NCBI GenBank assembly: GCA_013140575.1
Contig: JABFSN010000253.1
Span: forward strand, 1 to 37,283
Direction of reading: 5' to 3'
DNA from: Phycisphaerales bacterium
Lineage (GTDB): Bacteria > Planctomycetota > Phycisphaerae > UBA1845
Length of the DNA: 37,283 nt
How positions within the stretch are numbered: the stretch's first letter is position 1; each line of letters opens with the position of its first letter. The position numbers and the translations under genes were made by a program. The notes under the pieces are model-generated. The model was not told the DNA's origin and ran no database searches. It saw only the letters and a program-made list of their open reading frames with translations. Positions 15,680 to 37,283 of the stretch are shown here, piece by piece.

Positions 15680-15733
15680 AACTCTATCGCCGCCCCCGGA
15701 CTCGTTGACCGGAACACATCTGTTCCCGCCTCA

Positions 15734-17287
15734 TTACAAATCGTGCCCGGCATAGCTCAGGTTAAAGCTCTTGTTGCACAGCGGAAAATCCGAAATCGGA
15801 ACGCCGCGAAGCGCCAACGCCAGTCCAAACCAGTTGTGCAGCGACGGGTCTTTCGCTTTGACGAATGCAAGTTTGCCCGCGTCGTCCGTGAAGGCCACGT
15901 GCATCGCCTCGCCTCGCCAGGTTTCGCTCAGTCCGAAAGCCACTGCGTTTGGACAGAGCGGCCCCGGCGCTGCGAACGTCCTTCCCGAGGGCAGGTTTCC
16001 GAGGAGTTCGAGCAGAAACTCCATCGACCGTTGCACCTCCAGCCAGCGCACGGCCGCCCGCGCATAGACGTCCCCGGTAGTCTCGGTCGCGACCGGCAGG
16101 TGACTGAATTGAAAGACGCCGTGGGGGAAATCGTGGCGCACATCGCGCATGCAACCTGATGCCCGTGCGACCGGGCCGACCAGTCCGATCTCTTCGGACT
16201 GCTCCTGGGACAAGACGCCCGTGCCCTCGAACCGCGCGAGCACCGAAGATTGTTCGAACATCATGTCCAGAACCCGGACTACTTCCGGCTGAAGACGATC
16301 CAGTCGTGAATGAAGTCCGTCGGCCATCTCCGGAGGTATATCGAACAACACGCCGCCCGGACGGAGCAGGTTGCGCCCGAACCGGTTACCGCAAATTTCC
16401 AAAGTCAGATTCAGAAACTCACCTCGGAGCCGGCCCAGGAACGATGCCCCGGGAAGGAACGCCACGTCGTTACACAGCGCTCCCAGATCACCGACATGAT
16501 TGGCCAGCCTTTCCAGCTCCAGCGCGATGCCGCGGATCGCGTGGGCTCGAACGCCGACGGCGGCGCCGGCCAACGACTCCAACGCCGTGCAATACGCGAG
16601 TGCGTGACCGACCGAGGCATCCCCCGCGAGGGTCTCGGCCACGATCGCGGAACGCGTCGCGTTGCGATGAAGCAGCAATGGCTCCGCGCCCCGATGTTGA
16701 TAACCCAGGGCAATCTCCAGATGCAGCACTTCCTCGCCGTGGCATTGGAACCGGAAGTGACCCGGTTCAATGATGCCCGCATGAACCGGCCCAACCGCGA
16801 CTTCGTGAACTTCGTCGCCGTCCACACGGTAGAACGGGTAGTCGCCGGGAATGGGCTTGTTCGGGTCGAACGCACCCCACGGTGCGGGCGAGCCGTCGTC
16901 GGTGGCGTGATACCGCAGCGGCTTCAGCCACGGATGCCCGATCGGGTGGACACCGTATTGTTCCGCGATTTCCCGTTCAAACGCCTGCGCCGCCGGCCAA
17001 CGGCCGGTGACGGACGGATACTGCAACGGTCGGCCGTCGGATCGGCGCAGTTCCGAGCGGCAGACCTTCATCGTGCCCTCGCGATCGTCGGCGACGAAGG
17101 CATGGAGCACCACGCCGCCGTCGGGCATGCGTCGTCCGAAGAGTTGGGCCAGTCGCTCGCCCCGACCGCGGGCGGCGGCAACGTGCTCCGCAAATGCGTC
17201 CGGTTCGACGCGCGGAACCGAGTCGATGTCCGCGCGCTCGCCCTGTCGCACCGTCAACCAATCACAGCCATTCACCGGCGTCCTCAC
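15734..17287 (-). CDS. Ehr-like large subunit (NuoC-NuoD/HyfG-like) lacking the NiFe-binding cysteines
   Basis: A 517-residue protein. The start is a GTG at 17287 overlapping the preceding stop by four bases; the longer upstream frame lies within that gene. An N-terminal 30-kDa-like part (to about residue 165) carries FEREIAEQYGVHPIGHPWLK. A 49-kDa-like part begins near GPVHAGIIEPGHFRFQ and contains GEEVLHLEIALGYQHRGAE. In [NiFe] hydrogenases the next stretch holds CxxC; here the aligned residues 221-224 are Ala-Gly-Asp-Ala, just before VGHALAY. The C-terminus ends FPLCNKSFNLSYAGHDL with no second CxxC and no maturation peptide. It cannot bind nickel in the usual way, so it is Ehr- or complex-I-like. 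The substrate is unknown. Confidence 0.88.
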   Translation of the reverse strand: MRTPVNGCDWLTVRQGERADIDSVPRVEPDAFAEHVAAARGRGERLAQLFGRRMPDGGVVLHAFVADDREGTMKVCRSELRRSDGRPLQYPSVTGRWPAAQAFEREIAEQYGVHPIGHPWLKPLRYHATDDGSPAPWGAFDPNKPIPGDYPFYRVDGDEVHEVAVGPVHAGIIEPGHFRFQCHGEEVLHLEIALGYQHRGAEPLLLHRNATRSAIVAETLAGDASVGHALAYCTALESLAGAAVGVRAHAIRGIALELERLANHVGDLGALCNDVAFLPGASFLGRLRGEFLNLTLEICGNRFGRNLLRPGGVLFDIPPEMADGLHSRLDRLQPEVVRVLDMMFEQSSVLARFEGTGVLSQEQSEEIGLVGPVARASGCMRDVRHDFPHGVFQFSHLPVATETTGDVYARAAVRWLEVQRSMEFLLELLGNLPSGRTFAAPGPLCPNAVAFGLSETWRGEAMHVAFTDDAGKLAFVKAKDPSLHNWFGLALALRGVPISDFPLCNKSFNLSYAGHDL

Positions 17288-18771
17288 GGAAGGACCTCCA
17301 TTCCCCGAGGGACGGCCGCGAGCGACGCCGTCGCCGGCGGTTGGAGCGTCGCGGCGGCGGCGCAAAGCGCGTCGCGCAGAAACGCAGGCTGGTACGCGCC
17401 GAAGACGAACGCGGCGAGCAACAACAGTGCAGCCGGCGTGAGCATGGCAATACTCCGCCACCGTTCTTCATCACCACGCACGGAATCGAGCTTTTCGGGC
17501 GGCGGTCCGAAGACCATGGGCAGCATCGCGGTCATAACCCCGACGAACACGATGCAGAGTGTCAGAAGGAACAGTCCCAGAACCCACCACTGAGCCCTCT
17601 GCGCCGCGGCAAACACGATTCCGAGTTCGCTGAAGAACATGCCGAAGGGGGGCAGGCCGCAGGTCGCACAGAGTCCGCCGAGGAACAAGACGCCGGCGAC
17701 CGGATGGTGGTGCAGCGCTCCGCGCACGTCGCTCACGCGATTGCTCTTGTAAAGCCGCCAGAAGAAGCCGGCCATGAAGAAGAGAACGCCCTTGTTCAAC
17801 GTGTTGTGCAGGGCGTGAAGCATGCTCGCGTAAGACCCTCCATGGCCCAGTCCGACGCCGATCACCATCACGCCCATATGCTCCACGCTGGTATAGGCGA
17901 AAATGCGGCGATAGTCATTGTTCCCCACGACGAACACAGCCGCCGTCGCTATGGAGAGCAAACCGAACACCACCAGCCAGCCGCCGGCGAAATCGGCAAG
18001 TCCCGCCGCCGAGCATATTTGCAAAATGCGTAGAATGCCGATGAACGCGCCCAGCGTCATACCGCCGGAAAGCAGCGCCGCGACGGGGGGCGGCGCCTCG
18101 CCATACGCATCAGGCTTCCAACTGTGCAGCGGCGACAGCCCCATCTTGGCGCCGAATCCGACCAGAGCCAGAAGAAAACCCGCACGCAACCACACGACGT
18201 TGAGTTCGCCGGCGCGCAAGATCAAATCGCTCCAGACGAGCGACAGGACGGGCTCGGTCTCCGACGCTGCCACCGCGATACAGAATACCCCGAGCAGGGC
18301 AAGCGCGATACCCACCGAGTTCATCAACAAGAACTTCCACGTTGCCTCCAGCGAACGGGCGCTCAGCCGGAAGTAGATCAGCGGCGTCGCCGTTAGAGAG
18401 GCCGTCTCCATCGCAACCCACAGCACGCCCAGATGCCTGCTCAGGCACACCGCACTGAGCGAAGCCAGCAGAGCAAGCATGCAGGCCAGGAAAATGCGTT
18501 GCGAGAGAAGCGCTTTGCGATGATACCCCACGAAATAGACCGAAGTCGCGGCAAACAACACGCTCATCAGACTAACAAATAAATGCCCCAGCGGCTCGAT
18601 CCCGAAGAACAAATCAACTTTGCCGCCAAACCCCGCGGACCAGCTCCATATCGTCACTCCGAGATGCGCCGCGCATCCCAAGACCAGACTCGCAAGACGC
18701 AAACGCGGACCCGGCAGGGCGATGCACGCCGCCGCAAAGATCACGGGGACCACAATCAGGAGCACATGCAC
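17284..18771 (-). CDS. HyfF/NuoN-like ion-translocating membrane subunit
   Basis: A 495-residue polytopic protein with about 13-14 membrane helices. It starts at a GTG at 18771, two bases after the upstream stop. Antiporter-type signature residues are visible: Glu in LWVAMETASLTATPLIYFR and Lys in GFGAKMGLSPLHSWKPDAYG, followed by PPPVAALLSGGMTLGA. A second Lys lies in HNTLNKGVLFFMAGF. The HSWKPDAYGEAP form is characteristic of HyfF-type subunits rather than NuoL. It should form one of three proton- or sodium-channel subunits of the complex. Its stop overlaps the large-subunit start (GTGA). Confidence 0.9.
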   Translation of the reverse strand: MHVLLIVVPVIFAAACIALPGPRLRLASLVLGCAAHLGVTIWSWSAGFGGKVDLFFGIEPLGHLFVSLMSVLFAATSVYFVGYHRKALLSQRIFLACMLALLASLSAVCLSRHLGVLWVAMETASLTATPLIYFRLSARSLEATWKFLLMNSVGIALALLGVFCIAVAASETEPVLSLVWSDLILRAGELNVVWLRAGFLLALVGFGAKMGLSPLHSWKPDAYGEAPPPVAALLSGGMTLGAFIGILRILQICSAAGLADFAGGWLVVFGLLSIATAAVFVVGNNDYRRIFAYTSVEHMGVMVIGVGLGHGGSYASMLHALHNTLNKGVLFFMAGFFWRLYKSNRVSDVRGALHHHPVAGVLFLGGLCATCGLPPFGMFFSELGIVFAAAQRAQWWVLGLFLLTLCIVFVGVMTAMLPMVFGPPPEKLDSVRGDEERWRSIAMLTPAALLLLAAFVFGAYQPAFLRDALCAAAATLQPPATASLAAVPRGMEVLP

Positions 18772-18773
18772 GT

Positions 18774-19433
18774 TTAAGACTCCCTCAGCGCATCGAGCAG
18801 ATGGGTGTCCATATGATCAAACTCGCGACGAATATGGTACACGACGATGCCCATGATAAACACGCCCACAAAGAGGTCCAGGAGAATCCCAAGTTCCACC
18901 AGCGCCGGCGTCTGGTCCAGCAGGAGCAGACCAAAGACGAAGACGCCGTTCTCCACGACCAAATAACCGAGAACCTGAGTAATGGCCTTCGCACGGCTGA
19001 CGAGAATCAGCAGGCCATTAAACAGGGTCGCCACGGCGACGGGGACCAATAAATCCGTCGGCGCTCGTGATGGAAGCGGCATTCCGTCTGCAAATGCAAA
19101 GCTGGCGACGATGATCAACGCCCCCAAAAGGACCGATGCAGTAAAGCCGATGAATGGCTCGACCTCTCGATGAATTTCGCCGCTGCGGAGCACTCGAAGC
19201 AGAATCCACGGTATCAAGAGCACCTTCAGACCCATCGTTCCCGCTGCGATGGCGAACACATGAACTCCCGGCGCGGCGTCGTGACTGAATCCGACGGCCA
19301 CCGGCAGGAGCGCGAGCAACAGGCTTTGAACAGCGAAAGTCCGAATGCACGCCGCCATGCGGCTGGTGGCCAGCATGGCGAGATTCAGCAGCGCGGCGAG
19401 AATCAGGATCGAATCCATGACCGACCGCAACAT
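18774..19433 (-). CDS. HyfE/NuoK-like membrane subunit
   Basis: A 219-residue protein with about seven membrane helices. It has the HyfE layout, which contains a NuoK-like three-helix core. TRMAACIRTFAVQSLLLALL-type Ser/Arg residues are seen in the first helices as SRMAACIRTFAVQ. KAITQVLGYLVVENGVFVFG carries the conserved Glu, and ELGILLDLFVGVFIMGIVVY is helix-like near the end. The ATG at 19433 overlaps the preceding HyfC-like stop by one base (TGATG). The C-terminal tail IRREFDHMDTHLLDAL is a marked family feature. It joins the antiporter modules to the rest of the membrane arm. Confidence 0.88.
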   Translation of the reverse strand: MLRSVMDSILILAALLNLAMLATSRMAACIRTFAVQSLLLALLPVAVGFSHDAAPGVHVFAIAAGTMGLKVLLIPWILLRVLRSGEIHREVEPFIGFTASVLLGALIIVASFAFADGMPLPSRAPTDLLVPVAVATLFNGLLILVSRAKAITQVLGYLVVENGVFVFGLLLLDQTPALVELGILLDLFVGVFIMGIVVYHIRREFDHMDTHLLDALRES

Positions 19434-20368
19434 CAGCCCGTCCTCCGCATCAGGACCAACACCACGGCGATCGCGGAGAGTACCGTGGCGCCGGCCAGAA
19501 ACATCGGTATGCGGTTCAAGCGCAACCGCGCCGTCGCCGACTCGACGACGCCGACCAGCACGGCCAATACGCCGAGTTCCGCGATTCGCAGCGTCGAACC
19601 GAATAGGCCGATCTCTTGCGAATGTGGAATCGCGGCGTGAATCAGAATGGACCCGAGCAAAGTGAATTTAAGAGCGATGCCATAGGTGATAAAAGCGAAT
19701 TCCGGCCCGCTGTGATCGAGCACCATGACCTCGTGAATCATGGTGAGTTCCAGGTGCGTCGCCGGATCATCCACCGGAACGCGGCACGTCTCCGTCAACA
19801 GGACCACGAAGAGCGCTCCCGCGACCAGTATCATCGCCGGGCCGGCAATCCTCCACTCGAGCAAGAGCCCGGGTCCGATCATCTCGCTGAGCTGCAGGCT
19901 CTTTGTGGCCACGGCCATAACCACAAACGCCAGAAAAAGCGCCGGTTCCGACATGGCCCCGAATGTCACTTCCCGCGATGCTCCCATTCCCTCGAAGCTG
20001 CTGCCCGTATCCATGGCTGCCAGGACGGTGAACATGCGGCCAAGCGCCAGAAGGTAGGCCAGCAGGATTACGTCGCCCGAGAACCCCATGAGCGACTCAT
20101 TGGAAAGTACAGGGATAAGCGTGGCGGCGGTCAACAGGGCGGCCAGACTGACGATTGGTCCGGCGCGAAAGACCCAGGTCGTCGTCTTACTGTAGACGGC
20201 ATGCTTCTGGATTAACTTGTGAAGATCGTAATAGGGCTGCAACCACGGCGGCCCCACGCGCCCGCCGAACCACGCCTTGGTCTTGGCGATGACGCTCATA
20301 AGCATGGGTGGCATCGCCAGAACCAAGGCCAGTTCCGGGACAAACAGAATGGCCCGAACCGCGGTCAT
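19433..20368 (-). CDS. HyfC/NuoH-like membrane subunit
   Basis: A 311-residue membrane protein of the NuoH/HyfC family, which links the redox module to the ion-pumping arm. Signature segments are RVGPPWLQPYYDLHKLIQKH near the N-terminus, then YLLALGRMFTVLAAMDTGSSFEGMGASREVTFG, split here as two adjoining stretches ending in the conserved SREVTFG. VPVDDPATHLELTMIHEVMV carries the conserved acidic residues. It has about eight membrane helices. The ATG at 20368 overlaps the second HyfB-like stop by four bases. The gene order HyfB-C-E-F-G matches hyf/ehr clusters. Confidence 0.92.
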   Translation of the reverse strand: MTAVRAILFVPELALVLAMPPMLMSVIAKTKAWFGGRVGPPWLQPYYDLHKLIQKHAVYSKTTTWVFRAGPIVSLAALLTAATLIPVLSNESLMGFSGDVILLAYLLALGRMFTVLAAMDTGSSFEGMGASREVTFGAMSEPALFLAFVVMAVATKSLQLSEMIGPGLLLEWRIAGPAMILVAGALFVVLLTETCRVPVDDPATHLELTMIHEVMVLDHSGPEFAFITYGIALKFTLLGSILIHAAIPHSQEIGLFGSTLRIAELGVLAVLVGVVESATARLRLNRIPMFLAGATVLSAIAVVLVLMRRTG

Positions 20369-22551
20369 GGATGACCTCCGATCATGGACACATGCCCGAC
20401 ATTTCGTTCGACCACCACGCCTGTTCGATCCGCGGCTGAAATCGCTTCAATCAAAAACAGAACCACCAGGGTCAGCACAAGAAACAGCAGGCGGACCTGT
20501 ATGCTGCCTCGACGCAACGCGGCGATAGCAGCGTTCAAAATCGCCCGCACCGGACCAGGTCGCCGGCGTGCCATGACCGGTGAGTCGGCCGGCGACTCTA
20601 TCTCTCTCAAACGGGAGACGGTTCGCACCATGGCAAACAACCGCGCAATTCCGCGGAACAACGGCGCAAACACGTCACGCTCGGCAATGTCCGGCGCCTG
20701 CGTTTCCAACCGGGAGGCCTCCGGAAAAGAACCGTACGGGGCGACGACCACTCGTTCAGACCATAGCAGGCTTCGACACGTCTCTACCAGGAACGAAGCG
20801 AAGGACGAAGACGTGTACTGCATTCTCGCCGTCGGCCGGGCGTATCCGCAGCCCCATGTCGCCACCGTCCGCGCTCTCTGGGCATCGCGAACCGAGCCAC
20901 GCGGCCGCGCCCATCTCCGCAGGGCGGACAAGCCGCCCATTGAAACCAAGAGGAGCAACGCCATCCCGGAAAGACTTGACGCCGGCGCCAGGACACTGGG
21001 GAGCAGCGTCTCGATATTACCGACCGGCACGCTTGCGAGTTCCGCGATTGCCGATCGAACCAGCGGCACCCAAAAACCGGGTAGCACCCCGATCACCACG
21101 CATAACGACCCCAGTGCCGCCATTGCTCCGAGCATTCCGGCGGGCGTCGCGTGCGACCCAACGCCTCCCTCGCGCGGTTCACCGAGAAAGACGGCGCCGA
21201 ACACCTTCGCGAAACAGGCCAACGCCAGACCGCCCATCAGCGCCAGTGCCGCCACGCCGACGGCCGTCAATCCCCCGACCACGCCGGTTCCGCGGATTGA
21301 GCCATCAAAAAGAGCGCCGTAGATCACCCATTCGCCCAGAAAACCGTTCAACGGCGGCAGTCCGCAGATCGCGACGGCCCCGACGAGAAAAAGCAGGGCA
21401 TTGACCGGCGTCCGGCGGGCCAGCCCGCCCAGTCGCTCAATCTCTCCCGTCCCGGTTGAGTGCTGCACGGCGCCGGCCGAAAGGAAGAGCAGGCCCTTGA
21501 ACAGTGCATGGTTGGTTACGTGCAGAAGCGCCCCCGCGTACCCGAGCACGCTGAGTACCGGCTCGTTCATCGCCTCGCCGAGCAGCCCGGCGCTGAGTGC
21601 CAGTGCAATGATGCCGATGTTCTCCACCGTGTGATACGCCAGCAGACGTTTTAAGTCGTGCTGAGCCAGCGCGTAGAGGACTCCCATCACGCCGCTCACC
21701 ACGCCAACCAGCAGCATTATTTCGCCGCACATGATCGGCAACGGCGGCAACCATGTGAAAAGCCGGAGCAGTCCGTAGATCCCCATCTTCACGACCACGC
21801 CGGACAGAAGCGCCGACACCGGCGTCGGCGCGACCGGATGGGCGGCCGGCAACCACACGTGCATGGGCATGAATCCCGCCTTGGTGCCGAACCCCAGAAG
21901 ACCGAGCATGAAGAGCGTCGTGAGCGTGTTTCGATCGTCGGCCCCGACGGCCCCGGCAAACGCGGAAAACGCAGTCGTTCCGGCTAGCGCGAACAGAATG
22001 CCGAAGAGCGGCACGACGAATAAGGCCGTGCCCAGATGCGTTGCCACCAGATACATCCACGCCCCGCGGCGCACTTCGGCGCGCTCATGGTGAAACGCAA
22101 CCAGGAAGAACGCGCAGAGCGTCATTCCCTCCCAACTGACCAGGAACACTACCGCGTCCGCGGCGCACACCAGTAGAATCAAAGATGCCAGCAGCCCGCA
22201 GAAGAGCGCACAATACGCCGGCGTCGCCTCTCGGCCTACCCCCGCGCGCATGTACGTCGCCGAGTAGACGGCCACGCACGCCGCGAGCACGCCGATGGTC
22301 ATCAGGAACCACGCGGAAAGACCGTCAATACTCAACGAAGCGGTGCCCAAAGACAGCGGCCACGCCACCGCGCATGCTATTGGCGATGACGCGCGAATTA
22401 GAGAGTCGCCCGACGCGATCACCACCAGGACCGAGGCCACGAATGCCAGGAACATGGACAGGTGCAGCGCCGGACGCGCCGCACGCATGAGCAGGAGCGA
22501 CGTTGCCATCCCCCCGGCGAGAAGCGCCAGGCTCGTCAGCACCACAGTCAT
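20365..22551 (-). CDS. second HyfB-like antiporter subunit (tandem paralogue)
   Basis: A 728-residue polytopic protein with about 14 N-terminal membrane helices. Antiporter residues are visible: Glu in VVFLVSWEGMTLCAFFLVAF, Lys in GFGTKAGFMPMHVWLPAAH, the conserved Lys in NHALFKGLLFLSAGAVQ, and HP/VAPTPVSALLSG. Past residue 560 comes a HyfB-specific region with WGCGYARPTARMQYTSSSF and one last membrane helix near residues 688-706. It is clearly related along its whole length to the gene upstream of it and overlaps it by four bases. Compared with that copy it has a longer, more polar C-terminal loop (about 600-680). It would be a third proton- or sodium-pumping subunit. Confidence 0.9.
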   Translation of the reverse strand: MTVVLTSLALLAGGMATSLLLMRAARPALHLSMFLAFVASVLVVIASGDSLIRASSPIACAVAWPLSLGTASLSIDGLSAWFLMTIGVLAACVAVYSATYMRAGVGREATPAYCALFCGLLASLILLVCAADAVVFLVSWEGMTLCAFFLVAFHHERAEVRRGAWMYLVATHLGTALFVVPLFGILFALAGTTAFSAFAGAVGADDRNTLTTLFMLGLLGFGTKAGFMPMHVWLPAAHPVAPTPVSALLSGVVVKMGIYGLLRLFTWLPPLPIMCGEIMLLVGVVSGVMGVLYALAQHDLKRLLAYHTVENIGIIALALSAGLLGEAMNEPVLSVLGYAGALLHVTNHALFKGLLFLSAGAVQHSTGTGEIERLGGLARRTPVNALLFLVGAVAICGLPPLNGFLGEWVIYGALFDGSIRGTGVVGGLTAVGVAALALMGGLALACFAKVFGAVFLGEPREGGVGSHATPAGMLGAMAALGSLCVVIGVLPGFWVPLVRSAIAELASVPVGNIETLLPSVLAPASSLSGMALLLLVSMGGLSALRRWARPRGSVRDAQRARTVATWGCGYARPTARMQYTSSSFASFLVETCRSLLWSERVVVAPYGSFPEASRLETQAPDIAERDVFAPLFRGIARLFAMVRTVSRLREIESPADSPVMARRRPGPVRAILNAAIAALRRGSIQVRLLFLVLTLVVLFLIEAISAADRTGVVVERNVGHVSMIGGHP

Positions 22552-24653
22552 CCGTCTTGATCCATCCCGCCCCGTGCGCCTCGCTCGATGGAATCGTCGC
22601 CCGTCGAGGGCGCAGCGCCCGGCATCGCGGCGCCGTTACGTGGACGCGCCGAAAACGGGGCGGTCCATCCTTCGACAAGAAATACAATCAATACCGTCGC
22701 GACGATATAGACCAGGTACAACTGAATTCGGCCGTGCTGGAGCGGCAAGAGGCGTTCAAACAGCCGGGCCAGCCACGTGAACATCGGACTGTAAACTCGC
22801 TCGTGCGCGAAATCGCGCGTCACCGTCGAAAGCCGACCCGGCATTGGAAAACACGTTGAAAGGGACGGCGCCCGTCGCAGGGGGCGAAGGACAAACCGGA
22901 AGCACCGCATGACCTTCCACCCATAAGAGGAGCCCGTGTACTGCATCGTCCTTGCCGGAAACGCGTATCCGCACCCCCATGTACCGCCTGCTCCGCCGAC
23001 GGCCGCTCCCGGCGCCATGCGCCGCCGAACGACCAGGAGCCCGATCGTGACGACGATGAGAACGCCGAGTGGCCGCAAGAGTCGCCCGATCGGCTCGAGT
23101 GCAACGGCGATCGTGTCGGTTTTCCCAGACGCCTCCATCGCGAATGGCGTCAGGGCAGCGGATACCGCAGCAACCAGAGCTCCCGAGCCGAGGGCACCCG
23201 TCACGCACGCCGCTGCGAGGATCAGCATGCCCGCAAGCATGAATGGCGGGGTGTCGTGCACGGTGAGGCTCGGATCCCGCCGCGCGCCCAGGAACATGAC
23301 GGAAAAAGTCTTCGAGAAAGCCACCAGCGCCAATCCGCCGATCAATGCCAAAGCCGCCGCGCACGACGCCGGCAACGCCGCATACGAATTCGGCAAACGC
23401 ACGACACCCTGCAGGATCCCCGTGTAGATGGCGAATTCGCTAACGAAACCGTTCAGCGGCGGCAGCCCGCAGATGGCCACCGCCCCGACCAGAAACGCAA
23501 GTGCGTTCCAAGGCGTCCGCCGCGCCAGTCCGCCCAAGCGTTCCATGTCCCCGGTGCCCGTATCGTGCAACACCGCGCCGGCCGACAGGAACAGTAGCCC
23601 CTTAAACAGCCCGTGATTGAGCACGTGCAGCAGCGCCCCTCCCAATCCGACGGCGACCAGTTCGGGCCGGTTCAACGACCGCCCCAGCAACGCCACGGAA
23701 ATCGCCAGCCCGATGATGCCGATGTTCTCGACGCTCGAGTACGCGAGCATGCGCTTGACCTGTCGCTGCCCCAACGCGTACAGAATCCCCATCACCCCGG
23801 TCACCAGCGAAACGATCATCAGCCCGACGGCGCAACCGGCCGGTAGATCGGGAAGCCACGACACCAGCCGCAACAATCCATAAATACCCGTTTTGATGAC
23901 CGCACCCGACATCAATGCCGAAACCGGGCTCGGAGCCACCGGATGGGCCGCCGGAAGCCACACATGGAACGGCATGAATCCCGCCTTCGTGCCGAACCCC
24001 ACGACGCCCAGCGTAAACAAGACGACGCACCACGCCACCTCGGAAGCACCGACCGCTCCCCGGAACCCATCGATGGAGGTGCCTCCGGTTCGCGCGACGA
24101 AAACTGCGAAAACCGGCACCACGCCCAACGCTGTCCCCAGGTGCGTCGCGACCAGATACGTCCACGCGCCGCGCCGCGCCTCCCCGTCCTGGTCATGAAA
24201 TCCAACGAGGAAAAACGCCGACACGCTCATCAACTCCCAGCCGACGAGAAACAAAACGGCGTCGGCCGCGCAGACCACCAGAACCATGGCCGCGATCAGC
24301 GTGCAGAACAGCGGCGCATACGCCCCGTTTGGACCGTATCCGTCCGCGTCGTCGAAATAGTCCCACGAATAGACCGACGCGCCCACGCCCACCGCGCCGA
24401 TCACCAGAAGGAACCAGGCCGACAACCCGTCGACCGCCAGCCGGGCGCCCCCCAGCGCCAGCGGCCACTCGGCGGCGAGGCGCGTGGTCTCGCCGCCGCG
24501 AAGTACGTTCCAGCCGCCCAGAACGCAAAGCACGCCCGCCATCCCCGCGGCCGCCATTCCGATGCGCAACCCGGTGCGGCGGCGCTTCGCTGCGAGCAGC
24601 GACGCGGCCGCTCCCGATGCGAGCACCGCCAACGCGAGCGACACGTGCGTCAC
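22548..24653 (-). CDS. first HyfB-like antiporter subunit
   Basis: A 701-residue membrane protein of the HyfB/NuoL-type antiporter family. The conserved acidic position is in AVLFLVGWELMSVSAFFLVG, and the pumping Lys in GFGTKAGFMPFHVWLPAAHP. NHGLFKGLLFLSAGAVLHDT carries the second Lys. After the antiporter core comes the HyfB tail with WGCGYAFPARTMQYTGSSY and one helix near residues 649-666 (IQLYLVYIVATVLIVFLVEG). The ATG at 24653 overlaps the stop of the upstream EIIA-fusion gene by four bases. It is the first structural gene of the operon. Confidence 0.92.
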   Translation of the reverse strand: MTHVSLALAVLASGAAASLLAAKRRRTGLRIGMAAAGMAGVLCVLGGWNVLRGGETTRLAAEWPLALGGARLAVDGLSAWFLLVIGAVGVGASVYSWDYFDDADGYGPNGAYAPLFCTLIAAMVLVVCAADAVLFLVGWELMSVSAFFLVGFHDQDGEARRGAWTYLVATHLGTALGVVPVFAVFVARTGGTSIDGFRGAVGASEVAWCVVLFTLGVVGFGTKAGFMPFHVWLPAAHPVAPSPVSALMSGAVIKTGIYGLLRLVSWLPDLPAGCAVGLMIVSLVTGVMGILYALGQRQVKRMLAYSSVENIGIIGLAISVALLGRSLNRPELVAVGLGGALLHVLNHGLFKGLLFLSAGAVLHDTGTGDMERLGGLARRTPWNALAFLVGAVAICGLPPLNGFVSEFAIYTGILQGVVRLPNSYAALPASCAAALALIGGLALVAFSKTFSVMFLGARRDPSLTVHDTPPFMLAGMLILAAACVTGALGSGALVAAVSAALTPFAMEASGKTDTIAVALEPIGRLLRPLGVLIVVTIGLLVVRRRMAPGAAVGGAGGTWGCGYAFPARTMQYTGSSYGWKVMRCFRFVLRPLRRAPSLSTCFPMPGRLSTVTRDFAHERVYSPMFTWLARLFERLLPLQHGRIQLYLVYIVATVLIVFLVEGWTAPFSARPRNGAAMPGAAPSTGDDSIERGARGGMDQDG

Positions 24654-25351
24654 GCCTTGGCACCTTGTCCGTCGTCCATTTCCGCGACCCGCGCCTCGAC
24701 CGTTCCCAGTGTCGCGACGATTTCGTCCTGCGGCGCACGCGCGTCAAGGAGTCGTCGGAATCCCGCGTCCTGCAATGCGTACATCAGATGGCTCAGCAGG
24801 AGCAGGTGAACGCGAACCGTCGTGCTGACAATGACAAATAGAATGCTGACCGGCTTGTGATCAACCGCCCCGTATTCGATCGGGTTCCGCAAAAACCCCA
24901 GCGTGACCTGTGGTTCGGGAATTCCCAGCACGATCGGCCCCCGGGGATGGGGAATCGCCACTCCGTTGCCGATGCCCGTGGAGCATAGCGCCTCCCGCGC
25001 CACCAAAACGCTGTGCAACTCCTCGCGATCCACCTTCGGCGGCAGGGGCAGCGCATGGCACACCGCCTTCAGCGCCGACGCCTTGTCACCGCAATCCAGG
25101 TCGTAGATTACTCCCCCGCGGCTAAGCGCGTGGGTCAGAAGCAAATCCGGCGGCCGGACGCCGTTCTCGCGGAAGATACCCGGCGAAACCTTCATATTTC
25201 GTGCGGTCGCCCATTCCAACAGCTCCACGCGATTCAGGCGGTACTTGTCGCGAACTCGGTAACTCGGAACCGTCCCGTTTCTTATCCACGCGTAAATCGT
25301 CTCTTCCGGTACGTTCAGCAATCGGGCCGCGTCCTTGGCCGTCAATTCCAT
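24650..25351 (-). CDS. helix-turn-helix / PTS EIIA (fructose/nitrogen type) fusion protein
   Basis: A 233-residue two-domain protein. Residues 1-50 are a MerR/excisionase-type DNA-binding domain (KDAARLLNVPEETIYAWIRN, then VPSYRVRDKYRLNRVELLEW). Residues about 68-225 form a PTS type-2 EIIA domain: REELHSVLVAREALCSTGIG then NGVAIPHPR, where His135 is the expected phosphorylation site. The ribosome site GGGAGG lies eight bases before the ATG. It overlaps the first HyfB-like gene by four bases, so it is the first cistron of the operon. It likely senses phosphorylation state and controls expression or activity of the complex (inference). No EI or HPr gene is in the window. Confidence 0.88.
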   Translation of the reverse strand: MELTAKDAARLLNVPEETIYAWIRNGTVPSYRVRDKYRLNRVELLEWATARNMKVSPGIFRENGVRPPDLLLTHALSRGGVIYDLDCGDKASALKAVCHALPLPPKVDREELHSVLVAREALCSTGIGNGVAIPHPRGPIVLGIPEPQVTLGFLRNPIEYGAVDHKPVSILFVIVSTTVRVHLLLLSHLMYALQDAGFRRLLDARAPQDEIVATLGTVEARVAEMDDGQGAKA

Positions 25352-29655: not shown

Positions 29656-30354
29656 TCAATCCACCTGGTCCGTCGGTCGGCGGCTCGCGGATTCGGTCAA
29701 ATGCTGCAACCGCCGGAAAATCGGCGAAGCCCGCAGATCGACGTCCCGCCGCAACTCCTCGAGGGTCAGTCCGTCATCGAGCAGACCGCCGATGCTGCGC
29801 TCCACAACCCCGGCCAGTTTCGCAATCTCCTCGGGCACGCCCTCGATCGCTTCGGTCACCAGAATCCATCCGTCCCCCCGCCGCATCAGCTCGACCGACT
29901 CCAGCGGCAGCCGATCCCCGACTTGATAGACCACCGTCGCGCGATCCGACTCAACACGCTGACTCACCAACCGTGCGTGTCGCGACAAGACGCCCAGCAC
30001 GTCGGCCGATCGGGTGAAATCAAGCGCCTCCGCCGCGGCCAATCCGAACCGGTCGGCCGCCCGTCGCGCTAACGCCTCGGCCGCCGACTGCAACCGGTCC
30101 ACCGCCCGAATCTGCGCGATGACCGCCTTTCGCTGCTCCGCCAACAAGTACGTCTCCGCGGCGGAATGCCGGCCCGCGTCGCATTCGACCCGAATGCGCT
30201 GAATCGTCTGGATCGGATTCAAACCGGCGGCGTCGGATGAAACCGACGCGGACGGCGCCGATTCTGAACGGCGACATCCCACGGACGTGTACGCGCCGGC
30301 GGCGATGAATCCGCCCACCCACGCGAATGCCCGGATGCACTGGCGACGGTCCAT
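29656..30354 (-). CDS. hypothetical lipoprotein, 232 aa
   Basis: The ATG at 30354 starts a signal peptide (MDRRQCIRAFAWVGGFIAAG) with an imperfect lipobox ending in SVGC near residue 27. A mainly helical soluble part follows. It holds many Arg/Glu/Ala residues (AEQRKAVIAQIRAVDRLQSA), and the second half includes DRATVVYQVGDRLPLESVEL and WILVTEAIEGVPEEIAKL. I do not recognise the family. It is in the same direction as the alpha/beta hydrolase and the lipoprotein/secretin pair upstream. It may be an envelope protein. Confidence 0.65.
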   Translation of the reverse strand: MDRRQCIRAFAWVGGFIAAGAYTSVGCRRSESAPSASVSSDAAGLNPIQTIQRIRVECDAGRHSAAETYLLAEQRKAVIAQIRAVDRLQSAAEALARRAADRFGLAAAEALDFTRSADVLGVLSRHARLVSQRVESDRATVVYQVGDRLPLESVELMRRGDGWILVTEAIEGVPEEIAKLAGVVERSIGGLLDDGLTLEELRRDVDLRASPIFRRLQHLTESASRRPTDQVD

Positions 30355-30466
30355 CGCTGCGGAACTCCCGGCCGAATCAGCCCGGCCGGCGATTCCATCG
30401 AAATGCACGCCCGGAATGCCCGACCGCTCGTCTGCGTGGACGGTGCCTGCACGTCATGGCCCGACG

Positions 30467-30991
30467 TCAGGGAATGCGGGCCACCATCGGCACTTTGAAA
30501 TACTTCGGCTGGCCGGCGATCGTCCGCCCATCCTTGCGGACAAACGACACCACCACCATGATCTCCTGCCCGCGCAGGTCCGCCTCACCCCACGGAATTC
30601 GGAATCCGTAGCCCCATCCGTACCGCTTCGGGATGCGTCCGCGATACCCGTATGCCCGTTCCTTTTCGAACGATTCGGTATGAACCAGCGTGTTCGCGCC
30701 GGCGCCCTGCTCGTCACGATCCACGCGGTAGATTTCAAACTTGATCGTGCCGTCACCGAACGCGCCCTGCTCGCCTTCCGCCGGCGTCAGAAATACCGAG
30801 CACTTGAACCCCTGCGGAACCAGCGTGGGCGGCTGATCGAAATTCAGCCACACGTCCTGACTGCTGTAAAACGTGCTGACCCGGACGATGTCCGATCGGC
30901 CCGCGACGCGAGCGCTCTGACAACCCGTCACCGCCGCCAGAAACGCCCCGGCGGCGATCGCCGGCAAACTTCTGCTACGTCGCGCGCTCAT
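30467..30991 (-). CDS. small lipoprotein coupled to the giant secretin gene
   Basis: A 174-residue protein with signal peptide and a good lipobox (AAVTGC, Cys near residue 24). A beta-rich soluble domain follows: DVWLNFDQPPTLVPQGFKCS then FLTPAEGEQG, and a region with GYGFRIPWGEADLRGQ near residue 130. The ATG at 30991 overlaps the secretin stop by one base, so it is made with the secretin. Secretins often need a small lipoprotein pilotin to reach the outer membrane; the pairing suggests such a role, but the sequence does not show it directly. No family recognised. Confidence 0.75.
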   Translation of the reverse strand: MSARRSRSLPAIAAGAFLAAVTGCQSARVAGRSDIVRVSTFYSSQDVWLNFDQPPTLVPQGFKCSVFLTPAEGEQGAFGDGTIKFEIYRVDRDEQGAGANTLVHTESFEKERAYGYRGRIPKRYGWGYGFRIPWGEADLRGQEIMVVVSFVRKDGRTIAGQPKYFKVPMVARIP

Positions 30992-33900
30992 CACGGTCCC
31001 GTCGGCGGAAACCGAACCAGCTTCGGCCCGTACGTCGGCCGCTCCGTCACCGGTCCGATCGGTTCATCCTTCAACACCGTCGGCCGCTTCGGACCGTACT
31101 GCCCCGGTGTTGGACCATATATTGAACGGTCCCGCTCCGGCGCGACCGGCGGCATCGCCGCATCCGGTTCCGGCGGCAACGGTCCCATCAGGTCCTCATT
31201 CGCGTGTATCCGCAGCCCCTGCATCAGCGGGTGCCGCTTGATGCGATCCGGGAACCGCCCCGTCCGATTTACCTCGGCCACCGACATCTCGTGCACTTCC
31301 GTCTCGTCGCGCAACACGTTGACCGTCAGTACGATCAGCAACTCCGTCTTGTTGCTGTTCTTCGTCGTCGTGCGGAACAAATTGCCGATGTACGGAATGT
31401 CCCCCAGCAACGGAATCTTCACCACCGAATTCTGGATGTCCTCCGTGATCAACCCGCCCAGAATCACCGTCTCCCCGTCCTTGATCGTCACCGTCGTCTC
31501 GGCCGTCCGCTCCGAAAAGACCGCGGCCGTCAATCCCTCCGACACCTGCAACGACTGGTTGCTGATCTGCGATATCTCCGGCGCGATCTCCAGGTTCACG
31601 TACCCATCCGGATTGATGTGCGGCGTCACCTGCAGAATGATGCCCACCTCTTCATACTGAATCGTCGTCGAGCTCTGCCCCCCCGCGCTCGTCGTTCCGC
31701 TGATGATCGGAACGCGATCCCCGATGGTTATGTTCCCCTCCGCGTTGTTCTGCACCAGAATCGTCGGCCGGGACAAAACCTCCAGATCGCCCTGCGATTC
31801 CAGCGCCCGGAACAGAAAACTGAAATCCTCGCCCGAAATGGTCAACGACAATCCGCCGAACCCCACCCCCGCCGCACCGATGTCCGTGCCTCCCACGTAG
31901 TCGAAATCCTGTCCCTGGATCACGCCGTTCGGACCGACAAATGCCTTCTCCGAAAAATTCAGATCCTGCGCCGCGAATTCCACCCCCAGCTCGAACCGAT
32001 CGTCCATCGACACTTCCGCGATCAGCACCGAAATCATCACCTGCGGTTCCGGCCGGTCGATGTCGTGAACCAGTTGCATGTAGCGTGAATGCTCCCGCTG
32101 GCTCGCCCCCAGCAGCAGCACATTCGATTCCTCGTCGCCCACCACCGTGACCCGCTTGTCCGCCCGCTGCCGAATCGACGTCGCGTCGTCCAGTTCGCTC
32201 AACAGTTCGTTCTCCCGCTCCGTGAAATCGTCCACCGTCGATGCGATCACGTCAGCCTTGGCAAACCTCGGCCGGTAAACCTCGTGTACCCGTTCGTCCA
32301 AATCCTGCGCGTCCAGCTCCCGGACCAGTTCCTCCACCATCAACAGATCGATCGCATTGCCCGACGCAATCACCGTGTTCGTCCGCCGGTCGGCCGTGAA
32401 CCGCAACGGAATCCGCGCCGACGCCCCTTCGCCGGCCGCACCCGTCGCCGCGGCCGCAGGGGCGGTCGCCGCTGCGCCCTCCGGACCGAACACCAGCTTC
32501 TGCTCCACTTGGTCGCCGCTCTTTTCCTCCGTCCCAAACAGATCGTTTAACCGCTCAACCACCCCGTCCGCGTCCGCGTTCGCCAGCGGAAACAACCGAA
32601 TCTCCGCCGTCACCGGCTTGATCCGGTCAAAATCGAGAATCATCGTTTCCAACAGGTCCATGCTCTCGGCCGGCGCCAGCACCATCAGCGAATTCGTCCG
32701 CGTATCCGGCGAAATGGTGATGTCCTGCCGCAGCAGCTTCCGGACGTACTCCTTCCCGTCCGCCGCCTTTTCCTTGAACGACAGAATCACCGCGCTCTCT
32801 TCGTCGCCTGACGCGCCGCCCTTCAACGTCTCGTCCAGCACCTTGGCGAAATCCTCCGCCAGCGCCTGCTTCAATCGGACCACCCGCATCATCATCTCTT
32901 TCGCCGGCTTGGTCGTGTCCAGCTTCCCCACGATCTCCGCGATATTCTCCATCTCCGACGCCGACGCCCACACCACGATCGAATTGCTTCGCGTATCCGG
33001 CTGAACCGCGATCGCGTCCGCCCGGCCCGTCGCCCCCTCCCCCTGCTGCTTGAACAGCGTCTCCAGCGTTTGGGCCATCGTCTCCGCCTTCGCCAGTTTC
33101 AACGGGAAAATATGAAACTGCCGGGCGATGTTCGACGGCACGTCCAGCAGCGTCAGCAACCCCTCGATCAACGCATGGTCATCCCGCGACGCACTCGCGA
33201 TCAAACTGTTCGACGCCTCGTCCGCCTGAATGTTGATCGGCGTCGCCTTGTCCTCCGTTCCTTCGGTCCGCTTCTCGAACAACTCCGCCATCTTCGCCGC
33301 CAGCTTCGCCGCCGACGCATGTTGCAACCCGTATACCTCGAACGTCGACGTCGGAACCCCCGACGCCTTGTCCAGTTGCACGATCAAATCCTCGCACCGT
33401 TTCAACGAATCCCGCGCCCCGGAAATGATCAGCGTGTTGCTGCGCTCGTCCGCAATGATCGTCGGCTGACGGAACAGGTCCGGCTCGGACGCGTCCGCCT
33501 TCCGGCCCTCGAACAGTTTCTCCAGCATGTCCGCCAGCCGCACCGCGTCCGCAAACTCCAGCACGATCAGCTTCGTGTCGTCCCGAAATATGTCCGACAA
33601 CTCACCGTCCATCCGCCCGATCAACGTCTCGATGATCGACAGATTCTGCCGGCTCGCACTGGCCACGATCGAATTCGACCGCGGGTCGGCCACGATCGCG
33701 ATCTTCTGCCGCGCCTCGCTGATCGGGTTGTCCAGCCCCGCGGCCGGGTGGTACAACCCCTGCTCGAACAACTCCTTCACCTTCTCGACCACGTCCGACG
33801 CCTCGGCATTGCTCAGCGTAAACGTCCGGATCACCCCCTCGATCACCGGCTCCACGTCGATCGCCGCGATGATCCGCGACATCTCGTCGAAATTCTCCCG

Positions 33901-36159
33901 GCTCGACGCGATCAACACCGTGTTCGTCGCCCCGTCCACCGCCACCGCCACCCGGTCGCTCGGGCTTTCCTCCTGCCCCTGCGCCAGACGCTGCTTCATC
34001 CGCTCCTCGAACAGACCTTTCAACATGTCCCCCGTCGCCTGCGCGTCGTTGTGCGACAACGCCATCAGCCGAATCTCCGCGATCGGCGACAGCGGCTGCG
34101 ATTCCAACTGCTCGACCAGCCGCCGAACCGCCTCGAAATCCTCCGGGCTCGACGCGATCACCAGCGAATTGCTCCGCTGATCCGAAATAATCACCGGCTG
34201 ATCGTCCGTCTCCCCCTCCTGTTTCAGCTTCGACTTCCGCTCCCACAACTCCTCAATCTTGGTCGCCAGGTCCGACGCGCTGGTCTTGTCGCAATTGATG
34301 ATCCGGATGTCGTCCATCCACCGCTGCGACGCCACGTTCAACTGCTCCGTAATGCGAACGATCTCCGCGTAGTTCTCGTCGCTCGCCGAAACGATCAACG
34401 CGTTGCTCCTCACGTCGACCGCCAGGAACACCTCCTCGCGGGCCTTGGCCAGCTTCCCCATCTCCGTCTGCTCGAACAGCTCCATCCGCTTCTTGAACAA
34501 CTCATCCAAAATGGCCGACACCCGCGTCGCGTCCAGATGCTCCCCCAGAAACAGTAGTTGCATCCCGTATTTCAAGCTCGTCACCGGCACGTCCAGTTGG
34601 TCCACCACCGACTCGGCCAACGTCATCTGTTCCGGGCGGCCCGACACGAACAATATGTTCGCCCGCTTGTCCACCGCCAGCCCCACGTTGTACACCAGCG
34701 CTTCGCCGAATTCGCCCTCCGGCACCGCCTCCGTCTTCGTCCCGCCCGGCGCCCGCTCCGGCAGCGTCTTGCCCTCTTCAAACATGGTCTTCAGGATTTC
34801 CTGCACCGACTCCGCGTCCGCGAACTTCAACGGGAATATCCGCAGGTGCATCTCATGCCCCAACGGCACCCCGTCCAGCAGCTTGATGATCTCATCCAGC
34901 GAATCGATGTTCGCCTCGACCGTCGCGATGATCAGCGAATTCGTCCCCTTGTCCGCCAGAATCCGCAGCGGCTTGTCCAGCTCCAGCGGCGTCAGCTCCG
35001 TCCGCGATCCGTCCGACTCCCGCTTGATGATGCTCAACCGCCGGATCGTCTCCTTGATCTCCGCCTGGCCCGTCGAGCTCGCCAGCATGTCCGTCAGCAC
35101 CTTGGCCATGTCCTCCGCCGTCGTGTTGATCAGCGGAAACATCACCAGCTTGATGTGCCCGAACCCTTGCACCGGCTCCACGTCAATCTGATCGATCAAC
35201 GACTGTACCTGCTGCCGCATCGACTCCGGACCGAACACCATCACGCTGTTGTCCGCGTCGTTCACCTCGATGTTGATCTCCTCCTGCCCCTCCTGCTTCT
35301 TCCGCAGCCGCTCGACGATCAACTTCAACTGATCCACCACCTCCGTCGCTCGCCGGTTCTTAATAAAAAACTTCATCGTCGTGAACTTCGGAATGCTCTC
35401 CTCCACCTCGTCGATCGCGTCCGCGATCTCGATGATGCGCTCCATCCGCGTCGGCGGCCCCGTGATCAGCACCACGTTCGTCGACACCGCGATCACCGTG
35501 ATCCGCTGGTCCGGCAAATCCGGCGACGCCGGCCACAATTCCTCCACGATGTCCTTCAGCTTCTCCGCCACCTTTTCCGCGCTGGCGCTCTTCAGCGTGT
35601 GCAGCACGTACTCCTTCTCCGCCGGCTCCCGGTCAATCCTCCCGATGAACCGCTCCAAAACCTTAATGTCCTCGTCGTTGCCGATGATCACCAGTTCGCC
35701 CGTCTCCAGCGTCTCCACCGACACGTCATTCCCGCTCAACTTCAACTGCAGCGGCCCCTCGTCATCCGCGCTCACCAGACCCGCGTCACCCGTCGCATGC
35801 CGGTCCGCACCCTCAGTCGCCGGACCGATCCCCTCATTCGCTGCCTGACCCGACGTATCGTTCGCTGCCCGCGACCGCTCCGCCTGCTCAATCAAATCTT
35901 GCAGAACTCTCGCCTCTTTCGCCTCCCGCGCCGCTTTTTCTTCGTCCGTCTCTTGCTTCGGTTCGGCCTGACTCGGTTCCGATTGACTTGGTGCAGGTTG
36001 TGTCGGCGCGGATTGCCGCTGACCCGAACGGGTCTGCTGTTTGGACGGCGCAGCCTGCTGACCGGCAACGTCACCAGCAAACGCCGCCGACACCAGCCCA
36101 ACCGCCAGCCAAACCGCTGCCACCCAACCTGAACTCTTCCGCTTTCTTCGTGGTGTCAT
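30991..36159 (-). CDS. giant secretin with about 14 tandem N-domain modules
   Basis: A 1,722-residue exported protein. The ATG at 36159 gives a signal peptide (GWVAAVWLAVGLVSAAFAG at residues 11-29) and has AGGGGA seven bases upstream. Residues 38-80 are Gln/Pro/Ser/Glu-rich. Following an initial half-module (136-176) are about 14 repeats of the GspD/PilQ-type N-domain, each 70-100 residues. Each ends in a strand like DVRSNALIVSAS and a helix closing in LD (ends near 250, 326, 429, 523, 607, 685, 768, 850, 930, 1006, 1081, 1178, 1282, 1368). The barrel domain spans about 1370-1615 with VLSRPTILVQNN, VGIILQVTPHINPDG and PLLGDIPYIGNLFR. The tail has three YGP repeats. Normal secretins have three to five N-domains. 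It would form an outer-membrane channel with a very long periplasmic shaft. Confidence 0.93.
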   Translation of the reverse strand: MTPRRKRKSSGWVAAVWLAVGLVSAAFAGDVAGQQAAPSKQQTRSGQRQSAPTQPAPSQSEPSQAEPKQETDEEKAAREAKEARVLQDLIEQAERSRAANDTSGQAANEGIGPATEGADRHATGDAGLVSADDEGPLQLKLSGNDVSVETLETGELVIIGNDEDIKVLERFIGRIDREPAEKEYVLHTLKSASAEKVAEKLKDIVEELWPASPDLPDQRITVIAVSTNVVLITGPPTRMERIIEIADAIDEVEESIPKFTTMKFFIKNRRATEVVDQLKLIVERLRKKQEGQEEINIEVNDADNSVMVFGPESMRQQVQSLIDQIDVEPVQGFGHIKLVMFPLINTTAEDMAKVLTDMLASSTGQAEIKETIRRLSIIKRESDGSRTELTPLELDKPLRILADKGTNSLIIATVEANIDSLDEIIKLLDGVPLGHEMHLRIFPLKFADAESVQEILKTMFEEGKTLPERAPGGTKTEAVPEGEFGEALVYNVGLAVDKRANILFVSGRPEQMTLAESVVDQLDVPVTSLKYGMQLLFLGEHLDATRVSAILDELFKKRMELFEQTEMGKLAKAREEVFLAVDVRSNALIVSASDENYAEIVRITEQLNVASQRWMDDIRIINCDKTSASDLATKIEELWERKSKLKQEGETDDQPVIISDQRSNSLVIASSPEDFEAVRRLVEQLESQPLSPIAEIRLMALSHNDAQATGDMLKGLFEERMKQRLAQGQEESPSDRVAVAVDGATNTVLIASSRENFDEMSRIIAAIDVEPVIEGVIRTFTLSNAEASDVVEKVKELFEQGLYHPAAGLDNPISEARQKIAIVADPRSNSIVASASRQNLSIIETLIGRMDGELSDIFRDDTKLIVLEFADAVRLADMLEKLFEGRKADASEPDLFRQPTIIADERSNTLIISGARDSLKRCEDLIVQLDKASGVPTSTFEVYGLQHASAAKLAAKMAELFEKRTEGTEDKATPINIQADEASNSLIASASRDDHALIEGLLTLLDVPSNIARQFHIFPLKLAKAETMAQTLETLFKQQGEGATGRADAIAVQPDTRSNSIVVWASASEMENIAEIVGKLDTTKPAKEMMMRVVRLKQALAEDFAKVLDETLKGGASGDEESAVILSFKEKAADGKEYVRKLLRQDITISPDTRTNSLMVLAPAESMDLLETMILDFDRIKPVTAEIRLFPLANADADGVVERLNDLFGTEEKSGDQVEQKLVFGPEGAAATAPAAAATGAAGEGASARIPLRFTADRRTNTVIASGNAIDLLMVEELVRELDAQDLDERVHEVYRPRFAKADVIASTVDDFTERENELLSELDDATSIRQRADKRVTVVGDEESNVLLLGASQREHSRYMQLVHDIDRPEPQVMISVLIAEVSMDDRFELGVEFAAQDLNFSEKAFVGPNGVIQGQDFDYVGGTDIGAAGVGFGGLSLTISGEDFSFLFRALESQGDLEVLSRPTILVQNNAEGNITIGDRVPIISGTTSAGGQSSTTIQYEEVGIILQVTPHINPDGYVNLEIAPEISQISNQSLQVSEGLTAAVFSERTAETTVTIKDGETVILGGLITEDIQNSVVKIPLLGDIPYIGNLFRTTTKNSNKTELLIVLTVNVLRDETEVHEMSVAEVNRTGRFPDRIKRHPLMQGLRIHANEDLMGPLPPEPDAAMPPVAPERDRSIYGPTPGQYGPKRPTVLKDEPIGPVTERPTYGPKLVRFPPTGP

Positions 36160-36468
36160 TAATCGTTCCCCTGATCCGACCGCTCTTACAAATGTAGCGG
36201 CCGATGTTTCAGACCGGCGCGACTCCGTCGCGCCCGCTCCCGTCCCGCGCCTCGACCTCACCTCTCCCGCGTAGTTCCGCGCCTTTCACGCTTTCTCACC
36301 TTCCCACCTCCTCACCTTCTCACCTTCTCACCTTCTCACTTTCTCACCTTGCCGCCCTAACGTCGCCTGCATCACACCCTACCCATTCTCAACGTCGGCC
36401 CGCCCCCGTCAATCGCTCCAACCCTGTCTCCCCATTTCGCCTTTCGACGTTTCGCCTTTCGCCTTTAT
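36160..36468. repeat. intergenic gap with a tandem 8-base repeat
   Basis: This 309-base gap separates two same-strand genes for proteins built from secretin N-domains. At 36291-36350 the plus strand has a degenerate tandem array of TTCTCACC (four or five good copies plus variants). On the coding strand this is a purine-rich GGTGAGAA run. The rest shows no gene, though short CTTTCGCC repeats occur near 36440-36465. Confidence 0.7.
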
Positions 36469-37283
36469 TCATCCCCGTCCTCTCGTCGGCGCCGGCCTCG
36501 GCCGCTGCACCGGCGGCCTCGCCGGTTGACGCGTCGGCTGGCGCGGCGGCGTTCGCGTCGCCGCCGGCCTTGACCCACTCCCGCTCCCTCGTCGCCCCGA
36601 CCCCGCCGACTGTCCCTGCTGATTCTCCTCGATCACCCGTTCCAGTAACCGCCTCGCCTCGTCCGGCTTCATGTTGTTCAACTGAATCGTCCTCATGCTC
36701 AACCGCCCCGTCGGACCCATCGTCTCCAGGCTCTTGATCAACTTCTCCGCGTCCGCGAACAACGTCGGCGTGCCTCCCAGCACCAGCGCGTTTGTCCGCA
36801 CGTCCGGCGTGATCAGAATCGTCCCCGGCTCCATCCCCGGAACCGCCTGCGCCCGAATCTGCTCGCTCTGGTTGATCGTCGTCTCCACCAGGCTTGCCAG
36901 GTCCATCACATTCACCCCTTCCGCCACCGGAATGATCAGGTGCCCGGCCCTGTCCTCCGACGAAGGCACGTCCAGTTCCTTCACCAGATTCTCGATCTGC
37001 GACATATCCGCCGCCCCCGCCCGCACGATCAACGTGTTGCTGATCTCATCCGCCGCCACCACCGGCGCCTGCACCGTCGACGCCCCGCTCCCGCCCGACC
37101 GCCTCGACTCCACGAACATCTTCGTCAACACCGGCTCGATCTGCGCCGCCCGGGCATGTTCCAATGCGATGATCCGCGGCTTGTTGCCAGCGTCCTCCAC
37201 CTCCTGATCCAGCTTCGCGATCACCCCCCGCAACCGCTCGATCTCCTCCCCCGCCCCCGACACGATCAACGTGCTATTCGATG
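36469..37283 (-). CDS. secretin N-domain repeat protein with basic tail, partial (runs off right edge)
   Basis: The frame is open from the right edge to a TGA at 36469, leaving 270 visible residues of the C-terminus. It contains the same modules as the giant secretin downstream: the end of one (SNSTLIVSGAGEEIERLRG), two complete units (about 35-104, and 112-188 with PDVRTNALVLGGTP), and a half module (195-218). It then ends in a 48-residue Gly/Ser, Pro and Arg tail rather than a secretin barrel. It may stack with the secretin or extend its shaft in the periplasm, but without its N-terminus the role is unknown. The true start is outside the window. Confidence 0.85.
   Translation of the reverse strand, partial: SNSTLIVSGAGEEIERLRGVIAKLDQEVEDAGNKPRIIALEHARAAQIEPVLTKMFVESRRSGGSGASTVQAPVVAADEISNTLIVRAGAADMSQIENLVKELDVPSSEDRAGHLIIPVAEGVNVMDLASLVETTINQSEQIRAQAVPGMEPGTILITPDVRTNALVLGGTPTLFADAEKLIKSLETMGPTGRLSMRTIQLNNMKPDEARRLLERVIEENQQGQSAGSGRRGSGSGSRPAATRTPPRQPTRQPARPPVQRPRPAPTRGRG

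Follow-up and report, generated by a model that had tools for sequence, protein, structure and literature searches.

The window analyzed here is a stretch of 37,283 nucleotides from a Phycisphaerales bacterium. Near one of its ends, the minus strand carries a large secretin gene (gene B), which lies between the truncated end of a second gene (gene A) and a lipoprotein gene followed by a putative second one (Table 1). The open reading frame of gene B runs from an ATG at 36159 to a stop at 30991, exactly where the original prediction had placed a giant secretin with about 14 N-domains and a normal barrel. The Pfam search agreed with this composition: 14 stretches exceeded the threshold for Secretin_N (PF03958; E 8.5e-148), and a single barrel was matched by Secretin (PF00263; E 1.7e-49). 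A profile built in this analysis recovered 15 N-domains, and such counts shift by a few with the profile and threshold used. The HMM count is thus 14 to 15 rather than a few. Usual secretins have three to six ring-forming modules. No N0-like domain was found in gene B. Among the long-secretin loci compared, the YGP motifs of the tail are kept within the order only and not outside it, and they are therefore not a general mark of long secretins. The gap between genes A and B contains short tandem repeats at 36293-36350 and 36435-36466 (periods 8 and 7). Elsewhere in the window, an operon for a complex I-like or group-4-hydrogenase-like membrane complex occupies positions 14906-25351 on the minus strand; it is headed by a helix-turn-helix and PTS-EIIA2 protein and encodes a 20 kDa-type subunit with ferredoxin domains, a 49/30 kDa fusion, NADHdh, and three proton-antiporter subunits.

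Table 1. Features of the secretin locus in the window.
Feature	Positions	Strand	Basis and remarks
Gene B, secretin (GspD) with 14-15 N-domains and outer-membrane barrel, 1722 aa	30991..36159	-	ORF, Pfam, NCBIfam type_II_gspD
Gene B signal peptide, MTPRRKRKSSGWVAAVWLAVGLVSAAFA	36076..36159	-	Sequence, read by eye
Gene B N-domain array, 14 (Pfam) or 15 (own profile), linkers of ~7 residues	32041..35928	-	
Gene B secretin barrel domain, PF00263	31312..31806	-	Pfam; AlphaFold model, GspD fold matches
Gene B C-terminal tail with YGP motifs, candidate S-domain	30994..31131	-	Alignment A1, conserved in order
Lipoprotein gene, candidate pilotin	30467..30991	-	Start overlaps secretin stop (TGATG); signal peptide, lipobox
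Putative second lipoprotein, system membership uncertain	29656..30408	-	Adjoins first in 13 loci of order
Gene A, 3' end only (contig end cuts gene): N-domains 23 (second half), 24, 25 and basic tail, no barrel	36469..37281	-	ORF, domain register

The repeats of gene B are diverged, as had been read from their sequence at the outset, with a mean pairwise identity of 23% and a range of 11 to 36%. We compared the array with its counterpart in a related genome (G020, locus L055) and found that gene B domains 1-15 correspond one-to-one, and in the same order, to gene B domains 1-15 of that genome. The domains scored 69-149 bits against their G020 counterparts, as compared to 0-44 bits for the best match inside their own protein. 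Because 15 domains match the related genome in register, the repeats are not the product of an assembly collapse. The more general concern that the number of domains is inflated by misassembly or collapsed repeats arises from the fragmented metagenome assembly and from the window ending inside the array. Its probability is nevertheless negligible: the repeats are too dissimilar, the same domain order occurs in independent genomes, fused versions are found in single-contig genomes (G030, G034), and the split with separate leaders appears in more than 10 genomes, so that recurrence in independent assemblies already refutes it. The same class also includes secretins with only three N-domains (L172, L173); we found no misassembly by which a routine short homologue of this kind could be the true ancestor of the giant form.

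The array extends beyond gene B. A second contig of the same genome, C55, measures 4448 bases and consists of a single reading frame of 1482 codons that neither starts nor ends within the contig and that carries 15-16 N-domains and no barrel. Aligned to the L055 locus of G020, C55 corresponds to gene A domains 10-23, and the stub at the end of the window to the second half of domain 23 and domains 24 and 25. The two contigs share no sequence overlap, and each of them holds half of domain 23. As the contig break falls inside this domain, C55 and the stub are most likely parts of a single gene A, and the domain register joins C55, the stub, and gene B into one series. A full count of 14 N-domains is ruled out by the stub upstream and by C55. 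Thus, the prediction of an exceptionally long array holds and the array is real, but the number given was incomplete, as it covers only the membrane-end part of a secretin with ~36-51 N-domains, which in this lineage is encoded by two or three genes. Neither the start of gene A nor GspK was found among the contigs of this genome's assembly, which most likely reflects an assembly gap and not a loss; the start of the type II secretion operon is absent from the assembly as well, the region being cut off by the contig end.

A search of 40 genomes, which included that of the window, found strong barrel orthologues in nearly all of them. Within the window's family, a gene A product of 2384-3084 aa with 22-27 N-domains is followed by a gene B product of about 1500-1800 aa with 12-15, which together amount to ~36-40 N-domains in the relatives. 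Other families of the order encode the secretin in one open reading frame of 4144-4890 aa with 36-45 N-domains, in some cases in the single-contig genomes mentioned above. Single proteins are also found in other orders of Phycisphaerae (3580-5073 aa, 37-51 N-domains), the extreme being a protein of 5,073 aa with 49-51 N-domains. One gene A (L064) exceeds 4110 aa and has 49 N-domains, and two loci (L071 and L076) have three genes instead of two. Long forms, from 2646 to >3600 aa, occur in loci titled Verrucomicrobia too. The secretins of Pirellula-type relatives have 5-9 N-domains and those of Gemmata-type relatives 8-11; the three other secretins in the window's genome are 621-1238 aa long. 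The survey of genomes for secretins of similar length and their neighbors, which the original prediction had called for, thus revealed giant forms in Phycisphaerae with type II secretion genes upstream in the relatives. A contig titled Akkermansia muciniphila (L104) also carries a secretin, with 41 or more N-domains; this title may be a placeholder for an uncultured Verrucomicrobium.

The organization of these proteins bears on how the two gene products are related. Genes A and B each encode their own signal peptide, and those gene A proteins whose end is complete carry basic, Arg-rich tails. The gene A proteins of relatives and the fused proteins start with an N0-like region, the profile of which found the N0 domain of XcpQ/GspD as its best, though weak, PDB match (E 0.015). 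The linkers between N-domains are short, with a median of 7 residues. The fused proteins of the order have two long linkers, of which the second precedes the barrel and the 12-15 N-domains nearest to it and coincides with the site at which the two-gene families are split. The blocks of the three-gene forms fit both long linkers. In other orders, up to 50 N-domains follow one another without a long linker. A tree of the barrels places the split forms inside the fused ones with at least two changes, and the split is therefore derived. These sequences show that the ancestral form was a single polypeptide composed of an N0-like domain, 30-51 N-domains, and a normal barrel. Its own signal peptide, its basic tail, and the lack of a barrel could also mean that the gene A protein makes up an independent periplasmic assembly, for example, an inner-membrane ring stack, which would leave a channel of gene B alone with 14-15 rings and a length of about 40-45 nm. 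We consider this very improbable, given that sister families fuse the same domains with the barrel in one chain and that the N0-like domain, which in type II systems meets the inner-membrane protein GspC (PMC6882859), sits in gene A.

The original prediction had raised the possibility of a distinct secretion or cell-envelope system. The neighboring genes and the family scores instead place the secretin in the type II secretion system. The NCBIfam equivalog for type II GspD (TIGR02517, type_II_gspD) gave 669 bits on gene B, with a cut-off of 351, and among the four secretins of the genome, the giant one alone passed this cut-off. The barrel-less gene A of the related locus (L055:6425-14305, minus strand) also exceeded it with 496 bits, which means that automatic annotation would call gene A GspD. 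Since the score sums over the repeats, it backs the GspD identity of gene B without proving it. The solved structures nearest to gene B are GspD chains of type II systems (E 4.5e-48). In the relatives, the upstream region encodes GspE, GspF, GspG, further pseudopilins, GspK, a PilM/GspL-like protein, and a GspM-like protein. The full series including the ATPase is found in one genome (G004, L160); elsewhere, the ATPase gene is usually not adjacent. These neighbors make up a type II secretion operon and identify the secretin as its GspD.

The lipoprotein encoded directly after the secretin belongs to a family that occupies this position in 74 of the 78 loci with at least 10 N-domains, in 15 of the 18 loci with four to nine, and in 3 of the 10 with fewer, the loci not being independent of one another. 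The GC of the lipobox is invariant in all 19 aligned members, and AlphaFold predicts a confident Ig-like β-sandwich (pLDDT 86). Searches for a known pilotin family gave no Pfam or NCBIfam match, and the fold search returned generic β-sandwich matches only. The genetic link to the secretin is its adjacency, from which we infer that the lipoprotein may be a pilotin or a clamp. No Pfam match was obtained for the putative second lipoprotein at 29656-30408.

An AlphaFold model of the last six N-domains and the barrel of gene B consists of repeated β-α-β-β-α units followed by a secretin barrel, and the structures nearest to it are those of GspD; its overall confidence is modest (pLDDT 68, pTM 0.37). 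By analogy with known secretins, each N-domain would form a ring, and a long periplasmic shaft would be the natural reading of the gene B array. With an assumed rise of 2.5-3 nm per ring, the computed length of the tube is 38-45 nm for 15 rings, 100-120 nm for 40 rings, and 128-153 nm for 51 rings. Stacks of 40-150 nm are thus suggested by extrapolation, the secretins used as a guide having six rings or fewer. At 100 nm or more, the tube would be longer than an ordinary periplasm is wide. The shaft may suit the enlarged periplasm of planctomycetes, as the original prediction proposed; long secretins are found in Verrucomicrobia too.

Together, these data make it probable that a giant GspD of a type II secretion system has been split, with gene B encoding its outer-membrane half, and that the N-domains of this GspD stack into a periplasmic tube. 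The gene A protein would dock below the gene B protein, so that about 15 rings of gene B would sit atop about 25 of gene A in an oligomeric tube of roughly 100-120 nm. Substrates driven by a pseudopilus would pass through such a tube, crossing a wide periplasm from the inner membrane to the barrel, for which the lipoprotein would serve as a pilotin or clamp.

Whole N-domains have been gained and lost inside the array, and the barrel-proximal ones keep their register between families. Preservation of register nearest the barrel, together with changes in the distal array, would also be expected if gene B were a true GspD in which only the barrel-proximal domains formed rings, the rest being flexible beads that either gather substrates or serve as a tether between the channel and the inner membrane or peptidoglycan. 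Fission at linkers, which indicates that the parts need not be one chain, and the basic, Arg-rich tails of the gene A proteins point in the same direction. Short, regular linkers over up to 50 uninterrupted domains and an N0-like cap at the far end speak against such flexibility, and we regard it as unlikely. The stacked tube is the reading that we prefer. With belief and doubt closely balanced, we extend it to a lineage-wide type II system that has a secretin tube of 40-50 rings and at least 100 nm, tuned by the gain and loss of whole domains; in one order, two or three exported proteins would dock end to end and be held by a lipoprotein family without known relative.

If this is correct, a conserved secretin with 30-51 N-domains, the subunits of which reach ~5,000 aa, would rank with the largest bacterial channels. 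Repeat expansion would then be able to lengthen the part of a secretion system that spans the envelope roughly ten-fold, and the secretin would offer a molecular entry point for studying how PVC bacteria join their two membranes across wide, folded periplasms. How a pseudopilus could operate over 100 nm becomes a question as well, and the split form represents a natural experiment in which such a tube is made from separate pieces. Our search of the open literature for giant secretins, planctomycete secretins, and GspD in planctomycetes found no description, and a prior one may still exist. A study in Mol Biol Evol from 2020 reportedly presents new planctomycete protein architectures and is likely relevant. 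We also considered a possible link between the giant secretin and the crateriform structures of planctomycetes (PMC5394234).

Several known systems share individual features with the one described here. Pilotins of the PulS, AspS, MxiM, and PilW kinds resemble the lipoprotein in being small lipoproteins partnered with a secretin; the lipoprotein differs from them in having neither a family match nor a convincing fold match. DotD of the Legionella type IVB system is an N0-like domain made as a separate protein and offers a parallel for a secretin-type N-domain on its own polypeptide. However, DotD is one domain of a type IVB system, whereas the separate chain of the giant secretin carries more than 20 N-domains and belongs to a type II system. 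The longest characterized secretin among the papers searched, Thermus thermophilus PilQ, likewise spans a wide periplasm with the help of additional N-domain rings, with six stacked rings (N0-N5) and a length of 350 Å, or 35 nm (PMC5745081). PilQ, which has 757 aa, serves type IV pili and competence, and the type II secretin described here has about six to eight times as many domains. The closest likeness is to the GspD proteins PulD, XcpQ, and EpsD, which share with it the barrel, the N-domain fold, and the type II operon of the relatives; the N0-like start of the complete form, a weak profile match, would be a further likeness. The usual GspD has the domains N0-N3, and PulD reaches a length of 20 nm (PMC6882859); in contrast, the secretins described here have 30-51 N-domains, which in this lineage are split over two genes.
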